Assembly (NCBI GenBank): GCA_003963005.1
Contig: RXJW01000048.1
Coordinates: 1 to 64,000 of the forward strand
Reading direction: 5' to 3'
DNA length: 64,000 nucleotides
Source of the DNA: Burkholderiales bacterium
Lineage (GTDB): Bacteria; Pseudomonadota; Gammaproteobacteria; Burkholderiales; Burkholderiaceae_C
A program made the position numbers and the translations under genes. Each line of letters begins with the position of its first letter. Position 1 is the first letter of the stretch. Below, in pieces: positions 15,309 through 48,834 of this stretch. The notes beneath the pieces are model-generated. The model did not search any database and was not told the origin of the DNA. It was given only the letters and a program-made list of their open reading frames with translations.

Positions 15309-15397
15309 GAACACAGCCACAGAGACACAGAGGCACAGAGGAATTCATGGGCAGGACACCGACTTCTCTGTGTCTCTGTGCCTCTGTGGCTGTGTTC
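15309..15397. repeat. Palindromic octamer-hairpin element copy 1 (flhB-flhA gap)
   Basis: Arms 15309-15340 and 15366-15397; 30/32 complementary by eye; arm = GAACACAG + CCACAGAG ACACAGAG GCACAGAG. Confidence 0.95.
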
Positions 15398-18865: not shown

Positions 18866-18941
18866 CAACACAGCCACAGAGGCACAGAGACACAGAGAAA
18901 TCCGTGCCTCTCTGTGTCTCTGTGCCTCTGTGGCTGTGTTG
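18866..18941. repeat. Palindromic octamer-hairpin element copy 2 (motA-motB gap), perfect 32-bp arms
   Basis: 18866-18897 CAACACAGCCACAGAGGCACAGAGACACAGAG is the exact reverse complement of 18910-18941; 12-nt loop. Confidence 0.97.
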
Positions 18942-47163: not shown

Positions 47164-47433
47164 ATGGACGCACAACAAGTTTTCACCTTCGGCCAGCAGG
47201 GCCTGTACATGCTGATGCTGGTGTCGGCCCCGATCCTGATCGTCGTGCTGCTGGTGGGTGTGGTGATCAGCGTGATCCAGGCGGCCACGCAGATCAACGA
47301 GGCGACGCTGTCGTTCGTGCCGAAGGTCATTGCGGCGGTGCTGACGCTGGCGGTGGCGGGGCCGTGGATGGTCACGCAGCTGGTGGAATACATCCAGAGG
47401 ACGTTGCAGACGATTCCTTCGGTGGTGGGGTGA
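47164..47433 (+). CDS. fliQ: Flagellar export protein FliQ
   Basis: 89 aa; VSAPILIVVLLVGVVISVIQAATQINEATLSFVPK. Confidence 0.97.
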   Translation: MDAQQVFTFGQQGLYMLMLVSAPILIVVLLVGVVISVIQAATQINEATLSFVPKVIAAVLTLAVAGPWMVTQLVEYIQRTLQTIPSVVG

Positions 47434-47449
47434 TGGCGAGGTACGCGGC

Positions 47450-48047
47450 GGTGGCTTTTGCGAGGAGCCTTTGCAGCTCAGTGCACCGTGCCGGGAGTCC
47501 GCCCCGGCGGGCGGGTCACTTTCTTCTGCTGCGCCAGAAGAAAGTCACCAAAGAAGAGGCGCTGAACCGCAAGTCGCCTCTGGCCGGCCAAGGACATCGC
47601 GCGAGAACGAACGCTCAGAGCCTCACCCGAGGCGAGCCGCTGCGCTCTCGCTGCTGTCCTTGTCACGGCCCGAGCTCAATCACCGTCCGTGCGCCTAACG
47701 TCGGCTGCACGCCGAACTCACGAGTGGAAGACAAGCGCCGTCGACGGCGCGTCGTGGCATGTGGTGCATTCACTGATGAGTTCGGCGTGCAGCCGACGTT
47801 GAACGTGGTGAAGGCACGGGTGCTGGCGCTCGTGCAAGGTGGGAGGCGAGAGCGCAGCGGGTCGCTTCTGCGCACGGTCCGAGCGGGTGTTTTCGCGCGT
47901 GAGCCTCGCCACCCATCCGCTGGTGTGCGGTTCAGCGCCTCTCTTTTGGTGACTTTTCTCTGGCGCGACAGAGAAAAGTTACCCGCCCGCCGGGGCGGAC
48001 TCCCGGCACGGTGCACCGAGCTGCAAAGGCTCTTCGCAAAAGCAACC
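47450..48047. repeat. ~598-bp palindromic element filling fliQ-fliR gap (nested inverted repeats with a single centre)
   Basis: Outer arms 47450-47570 / 47927-48047 (about 109/121 matches by eye); inner perfect 24-bp IR 47697-47720 / 47777-47800; both centred at 47748.5. Confidence 0.92.
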
Positions 48048-48069
48048 TAACCTGCAGAACGAAGACCCC

Positions 48070-48834
48070 ATGTTCACCGTCACCGAAGCCCAGCTCCTCG
48101 CCTGGCTCAACCCCCTCCTCTGGCCCTTCATCCGCACGCTGGCCCTGTTCGCCGGCATGCCGACCTTCAGCCAGCGCAACGTGCCCCTGCGCCTGCGCGT
48201 CGGACTGGCCCTGTTCATCGCGGTCGCCGCGCAGCCGTCGCTGCCCGACATTCCGCCCACCCCACTCGACTCCCTGCCCACGCTCACGTTGCTGGTCGCG
48301 CAGCAACTGGTGATCGGCCTGTCGATGGGCTTCGCGGTGCGCATCGTCTTCGCCGCGCTGGAGTTCGCCGGCGAGATCATCGGCCTGCAGATGGGCTTGA
48401 ACTTCGCCGGCTTCTTCGACCCCGGCACCGGCTCTCAGGGCACCGCCAGTGCCCGCTTCTTCGGCAGCATGGTCGCGTTCCTGTTCATCGCCATCAACGG
48501 CCACCTGCTGCTGATCCATGCGCTGATCCAGAGCTTCCACGCCTTTCCGGTGGGCGGCGAGCCCTTCGCCTTCTTGCGCGCCGCCGCGCCGCAGCAGTGG
48601 GGCGCCGAGATCTTCAGCATCGGCCTGTGGATTGCGCTGCCGCTGATCACGATGCTGATGTTCGTGAACCTCGTGCTCGGCGTGATTTCGCGTGTCGCGC
48701 CGCAGATCGGCGTCTTCTCGGTCGGCTTTCCGCTGACGGTCAGCGTCGGCCTGATCGGCATGGTGGCCACGCTGCCGCTGATGCAGACGCCGTTCACCGT
48801 CGCGCTGGAGCGGCTGCTGGCGGTGTTCAGCTAG
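48070..48834 (+). CDS. fliR: Flagellar export protein FliR
   Basis: LVIGLSMGFAVRIVFAALEFAGEIIGLQMGLNFAGFFDPGTGSQ. Confidence 0.97.
   Translation: MFTVTEAQLLAWLNPLLWPFIRTLALFAGMPTFSQRNVPLRLRVGLALFIAVAAQPSLPDIPPTPLDSLPTLTLLVAQQLVIGLSMGFAVRIVFAALEFAGEIIGLQMGLNFAGFFDPGTGSQGTASARFFGSMVAFLFIAINGHLLLIHALIQSFHAFPVGGEPFAFLRAAAPQQWGAEIFSIGLWIALPLITMLMFVNLVLGVISRVAPQIGVFSVGFPLTVSVGLIGMVATLPLMQTPFTVALERLLAVFS

Follow-up and report, generated by a model that had tools for sequence, protein, structure and literature searches.

In the window, as we call the whole 64-kb stretch of DNA analysed here, the flagellar genes fliQ and fliR are separated by 636 nt (from the end of fliQ at 47433 to the start of fliR at 48070), and most of this gap is occupied by one large palindrome. 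The features of the locus are as follows.

47164..47433, + strand: fliQ, an ORF of 89 aa; orthologous fliQ-fliR pairs are found in relatives
47250..47449, + strand: left footprint, top strand C-depleted and G/T-enriched; mostly the 3' coding end of fliQ
47450..48047, no strand: whole quasi-palindromic element, 598 bp, dyad at 47748.5
47450..47513, + strand: left outer arm, GCTTTTGC...GAGCCTTT...CTC(A/G)GTGCACCG + CGGGAGTCCGCCCCGGCGGGCG; common to the second giant-palindrome type of the host genome
47514..47549, + strand: left side hairpin, GGTCACTTTCTTCTG..CAGAAGAAAGTCACC, then AAAGAAGAGGC
47637..47651, + strand: conserved middle module, CCGCTGCGCTCTCGC
47697..47726, + strand: inner arm, AACGTCGGCTGCACGCCGAACTCACGAGTG
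47735..47750, no strand: central 16-bp palindrome, GCGCCGTCGACGGCGC
47771..47800, - strand: inverted partner of the inner arm
47846..47860, - strand: inverted partner of the middle module
47948..47983, - strand: right side hairpin, GGTGACTTTTCTCTGGCG/CGACAGAGAAAAGTTACC, of the other stem type
47984..48047, - strand: right outer arm, inverted partner of 47450-47513
48048..48247, - strand: right footprint, top strand G-depleted (bottom strand C-depleted); mostly the 5' coding end of fliR
48070..48834, + strand: fliR, an ORF of 254 aa; orthologues are found in relatives

Self-comparison returned a single quasi-palindrome across 47450-48047 (617 aligned columns, 74.7%, E 2e-107). The other inverted repeats in the window were far weaker, the strongest of them being short palindromes of less than 90 bp, with a best E value of 6e-25 over 76 bp. 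Short palindromes of 76-89 bp at 15309-15397 and 18866-18941 showed no skew in their flanks. The large palindrome consists of nested arms that share the dyad at 47748.5. The outer arms (47450-47571 and 47926-48047) are 122 nt long and 90% complementary with no indels, the middle arms (47598-47662 and 47835-47899) pair over 65 nt at 72% in mirror positions, and the inner arms (47697-47726 and 47771-47800) pair over 30 nt at 93%, including a perfect 24-mer. The central GCGCCGTCGACGGCGC sits 6 nt away from the global dyad. Being of the other stem type, the right side hairpin pairs internally better than it does with the left hairpin. The original prediction had described this palindrome with correct coordinates and counts; its indel-free outer arms, the perfect 24-nt repeat concentric with them, the intermediate blocks at mirror positions and the small hairpin inside each outer arm were all recovered. 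Its further proposal, an inverted dimer of a 299-bp unit, is too simple for outer arms at 90% and middle arms at 72% with unpaired spacers between the modules, for a left/right asymmetry that is conserved in every copy, and for differing interiors behind shared outer arms. The element is a non-coding, modular, nested quasi-palindrome.

A dispersed family of large palindromes

The window element is one copy of a family of large, non-coding, nested quasi-palindromes (about 450-750 bp) found between genes in the Roseateles/Pelomonas group. Counting of copies by sequence search showed that the element is dispersed through the genus and is present in seven full-length copies in the genome from which the window was taken (hereafter the host; Roseateles/Pelomonas group, 236 contigs). 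On the same strand, the six other host copies share 82-89% identity with the window copy, compared with 73-75% on the opposite strand, indicating that the polarity of the element is conserved. Matches were found in 20 of 20 genomes of the genus, in four of 17 others in the family and in none of 24 from the other families of the order. In an alignment of 46 copies, the outer-arm, side-hairpin, middle and inner modules are conserved and the spacers between them are variable. A second palindrome type in the host genome has the outer 63 nt in common with the first and a different interior. It was seen on seven host contigs, with the side hairpin CCTACTTTTTGG..CCAAAAAGTAGG, and its flanks are also skewed. 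One host contig (C94) carries outer arms alone, forming a hairpin of about 70 bp, and the R. caseinilyticus copies bear additional outer layers. At four loci, an outer arm of the element is interrupted by a distinct repeat of about 80 bp that contains two hairpins (GCCTTGCCGCTTGCAAGCGGCAAGGC..ACAGGACAGCCCGCAGTGGGCTGTCCTGT). Giant palindromes also lie at the starts or ends of five host contigs and of three contigs in two other genomes; draft assemblies therefore break inside them, and the copy numbers are lower bounds.

At fliQ-fliR, the full element is present in four genomes (the host, R. puraquae, Pelomonas Root1237 and Root1217) and arm stubs only in two (G014 and R. caseinilyticus). Empty junctions, with a gap of 3-28 nt, were found in seven relatives, and three further genomes hold unrelated inserts of 130, 180 and 171 nt that are rich in inverted repeats. 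Another site lies between genes that we take, from their translations and without a database match, to be urtE-like and livH-like. Seven species have the first type (type I) at this site, G014 has the second (type II) and G004 a third, and four have almost nothing there. In a tree, the copies cluster mostly by genome and not by site: the window copy shares 89% identity with another copy in the host and 82% with the fliQ-fliR copy of R. puraquae. Such grouping could reflect gene conversion that homogenises the copies or repeated insertion at hotspots, between which the data do not discriminate. With gene direction taken from codon-position GC instead of annotation, both orientations relative to transcription occur among the copies (16 versus 15); seven copies are in convergent settings and one of the 39 typed copies is in a divergent setting. 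Copies and species in these comparisons are non-independent, and the edges of some copies are approximate.

Outside the genus, a common side-hairpin module relates the family to giant inverted repeats of many other families of Gammaproteobacteria. The left side hairpin pattern was detected in 15 of 229 genomes across the class, belonging to 15 genera, against zero matches for a reversed control, and across the class its stem bases vary in matching pairs. An inverted repeat of at least 200 bp was found at 17 of 40 loci around side hairpins, in 11 families. A further inverted repeat, CCCTCTCCCTCTGGGAGAGGG..CCCTCTCCCAGAGGGAGAGGG, occupies the centre of the Variovorax paradoxus palindrome. Spread by phages or plasmids was considered and set aside, as there was no phage match and the plasmid matches, in Variovorax and Pasteurella, were weak.

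Strand-asymmetric footprint in the flanks

The surprising part of the locus lies outside the palindrome, in a footprint that the original prediction had missed. In a dozen related genomes, C has been lost from one particular strand of the flanks, an effect that extends over a few hundred bases of the adjacent genes. In the 92 flanks of the 46 copies, and on both sides, C is depleted along the strand that runs 3' toward the element, dropping from 0.35 to 0.21 as G and T go up. The GC skew oriented toward the element is +0.28 to +0.35 within 100 bp (about +0.33), both sides alike, and decays to +0.24 at 100-150 bp, +0.16 at 150-200 bp, +0.11 at 200-300 bp and +0.05 at 300-400 bp, being about zero beyond 500 bp. 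About 90% of the flanks are skew-positive within 75 bp. When the 64-kb window was scanned, the element gave the top left-minus-right skew (0.65-0.67), the next independent site reaching 0.41 (standard deviation 0.13). The profile is equal for adjacent genes that read toward the element (n = 51) and away from it (n = 34), which excludes a transcription-strand cause. Because the innermost 0-40 bp may hold eroded outer layers, evidence from coding DNA counts most.

Such evidence was obtained by comparing orthologues with and without the element. Judging from its translation, one gene is presumably 5-formyl-THF cyclo-ligase. The element follows it in three genomes and a stub in one, and nine genomes are empty there; the consensus of the empties served as reference. 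Over the last 200 coding nt, the carriers and the stub show 84 losses of C (35 C>T and 49 C>G) and 11 losses of G, versus 83 C losses and 63 G losses for the empties, each left out in turn, over the same 200 nt (Fisher's exact test: 9e-8, a value that overstates independence because the species are related). Codon position 3 accounts for 68 of the 84 C losses, the protein is nearly unchanged, and no asymmetry between C and G loss was found at 200-600 nt of the gene. At this site the three carriers and the stub have the skew and the nine empties, including the near relatives G014 and G019, do not. The stub, a palindrome of about 90 bp in Pelomonas Root405, still shows the full flank skew. At fliQ-fliR, C is lost in both directions within one operon (fliQ codons 46-89 versus fliR codons 1-50), and genomes with the element or stubs differ from empty ones in the fliQ/fliR codon-3 skew difference (p = 0.016, again overstated by relatedness). 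The comparison at the urt site was diluted, since the genomes labelled empty included G014, which holds a type II palindrome. An excess of changes was found on both sides of the repeat, in the form of evolutionary substitutions. In G005 the fliQ-fliR gap is only 28 nt, yet the codon-3 skew is strong on both sides; this is possibly the scar of a lost palindrome.

The pattern is well supported in the genus and moderately supported beyond it. Around the 17 inverted repeats near side hairpins in other families, the mean skew was +0.21, +0.10, +0.03 and then zero per successive 100 bp, rough values based on automatic edges. Elements in Variovorax paradoxus, between convergent genes, and in Ralstonia wenshanensis, between glgB and glgX, have the skew in coding DNA; an element on a Comamonas plasmid showed none. 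A limited search of open-licence literature, covering titles and the openings of abstracts, returned no earlier description of such palindromes or of their flank skew.

Origin of the footprint and maintenance of the arms

Cutting of the palindrome and resection of its ends would leave, as the 3' overhang, the very strand on which C is lost. Judging from the substitution pattern, the flanks have probably been exposed chronically as single strands through breakage and resection. We lean towards an account in which the members of this dispersed family extrude a hairpin or cruciform that would be cut or would stall replication, and resection of the flanks would leave the 3'-ended strand single-stranded and open to mutation. 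Repair from another copy through the common outer arms would homogenise the family within a genome and could replace one interior by another while the site stays fixed. Short arm stubs may be produced by slippage across the hairpin, and the element would spread or persist as selfish DNA. A bolder version, which we put forward as a tentative and somewhat doubtful idea, is that the giant palindromes are transposase-free, self-homogenising selfish DNA in which chronic breaks drive repair from other copies, with conversion and exchange of interiors at fixed sites, and that the strand-specific C-loss scar, left in adjacent genes by resection, outlives the palindrome and records former insertions.

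SbcCD is the usual palindrome nuclease, as in E. coli. The models TIGR00619 and TIGR00618 scored below cut-off in the 13 genus genomes searched, with a positive E. coli control, and so another enzyme (e.g. a resolvase) or replication stalling would have to act. The presence of SbcCD as the driver was rejected: it was not detected in these genus genomes, and across the class the occurrence of SbcD does not follow that of the side hairpin (two of 15 genomes with the motif versus 27 of 214 others). Moreover, C>G is as frequent as C>T, and simple cytosine deamination is therefore insufficient. Inverted repeats in yeast give rise to hairpin-capped breaks, resection and mutagenesis on both sides, requiring end processing and a translesion polymerase (PMC3681665), and a chronic break at a palindrome in E. 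coli has no detectable effect on mutagenesis (PMC4213011). Given the absence of detectable SbcCD, the frequency of C>G and the E. coli null result, breakage with resection is an explanation that we prefer and not a result. The present family resembles these systems in its long hairpin-forming DNA, and the yeast case in changes on both sides, here read only as evolutionary substitutions. Those cases are single engineered loci, whereas the palindromes described here occur naturally throughout the genome, have left an evolutionary footprint and reside in hosts in which SbcCD was not detected; a strand-specific pattern is not reported in the parts of either paper that we could consult (PMC4213011, PMC3681665).

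Alternatively, the element could be a non-autonomous transposon of the MITE or REPIN kind, moved by a transposase such as RAYT, that prefers targets already skewed (G/T-rich on the left and C/A-rich on the right), in which case the flanks would reflect target preference and not a scar. We consider this unlikely. The copies are dispersed, have inverted ends and empty counterpart sites, and reuse the same junctions, and they almost never lie between divergent genes, much as REPs lie mainly between tandem and convergent genes (PMC3733652). However, the empty cyclo-ligase sites lack the skew that carriers and stub possess, and a skew spanning 300-500 bp goes well past the usual target motif. Nor was a target-site duplication found, no k-mer repeat (k = 3-9) exceeding shuffled pairing in the 46 copies, some with approximate edges. 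A search with the outer arm in the host, whose assembly is fragmented, and in R. puraquae returned palindromes, stubs and contig ends, and no transposase-bearing copy was noticed. The host has two PF01797 (Y1 transposase) genes, with no significant similarity to the element within about 1.5 kb of either, and linkage to RAYT was therefore rejected. On host contig C73, a Y1-type transposase gene is bordered by inverted ends that are AT-rich, resemble GGGGTCAGAGTCG and bear no relation to the element. An attC-like site at the centre (GCCTAAC..GTTGAAC, with box-like ends) was dropped because its right box varies between copies (GTTTACC, GTTAACT). The original description of the element as MITE-like consequently stands for its architecture (terminal inverted repeats, non-coding, dispersed) and not beyond it, since the analysis detected neither a target-site duplication nor a transposase nor an RNA-strand bias. 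Bacterial MITEs such as NEMIS, ERIC and RUP are likewise dispersed and non-coding, with terminal inverted repeats and both filled and empty sites, but are 70-300 bp long (PMC3733652), whereas this element is larger and palindromic throughout, with no cognate transposase seen. REP, BIME and REPIN sequences (GTAG and CGTC families; PMC3733652, PMC3116915) are also extragenic palindromic repeats with many copies, often in inverted pairs. REPs, however, measure 20-40 bp, in contrast to about 600 bp of nested palindromes here, and unlike the REP/REPIN-RAYT association, neither Y1 transposase gene of the host has the element in its flanks.

It is very unlikely that the element acts as RNA, i.e. as a huge hairpin in the fliQ-fliR transcript, as originally envisaged, that alters mRNA processing, stability or fliR translation. 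The element lies inside an operon, its copies are mostly downstream of genes, and its predicted folding is far better than that of shuffled sequences (-447 kcal/mol versus -269 ± 8, z = -21.9, 0/100). When copies are aligned to the window, 66-68% of the cells at mirrored positions form Watson-Crick pairs, versus 28-33% when the arms are slid, and compensatory double changes number 84 among close copies and 235 among distant ones, versus 8-54 and 48-88 when slid. A stem on a single RNA strand should favour G.U, yet G.T and A.C mismatches are about equally frequent (7.6/6.8% and 7.0/5.4%), and it is thus not a single RNA strand that has been preserved. Orientation to transcription is random, relatives retain the operon without the element, and an Rfam search of the element gave only one match, far under its gathering score. 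No evidence was found for a role of the element in flagellar gene expression. The arms could be maintained by gene conversion or by template switching, which keeps hairpin arms complementary through compensatory double changes without RNA selection (PMC8794818). Template switching alone does not account for the skew outside the arms.

We give little credence to the skew arising from transcription, local selection on codon use or Chi-like recombination signals instead of palindrome damage. Chi-type signals point toward breaks, and G/T-rich words pointing toward the element are enriched nearby, e.g. GGTGG with 194 occurrences versus 41 of its complement. However, the enrichment of GGTGG is not above the expectation from base composition, so selection for Chi was rejected, GCTGGTGG is only about twofold up (20 occurrences in 32.8 kb close to the element and 18 in 54.6 kb further away), and the equal skew next to genes of either direction excludes a transcription-strand effect. 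Finally, although the host assembly is in 236 contigs and open frames of 228 and 117 aa run across the element, an assembly artefact or coding DNA is hardly conceivable as an explanation of the palindrome. This structure is also present at other loci, in isolates (Roseateles puraquae, R. caseinilyticus and Pelomonas sp. Root strains) and in other genera, and the element, with zero Pfam matches and frame-breaking indels between copies, is multi-copy, dispersed and non-coding in the host and its relatives.

The palindrome itself belongs to the dispersed palindromic repeats, an already known kind. If its footprint is a scar of breaks or single-strand exposure, it would provide a readout, from sequence only, of natural break sites in bacterial chromosomes, and the scar would suffice to shift synonymous codon choice even in ordinary genes. 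Codon-usage or skew signals at gene ends may accordingly stem from a neighbouring repeat, and it would become possible to test what happens to long palindromes where the host lacks SbcCD.
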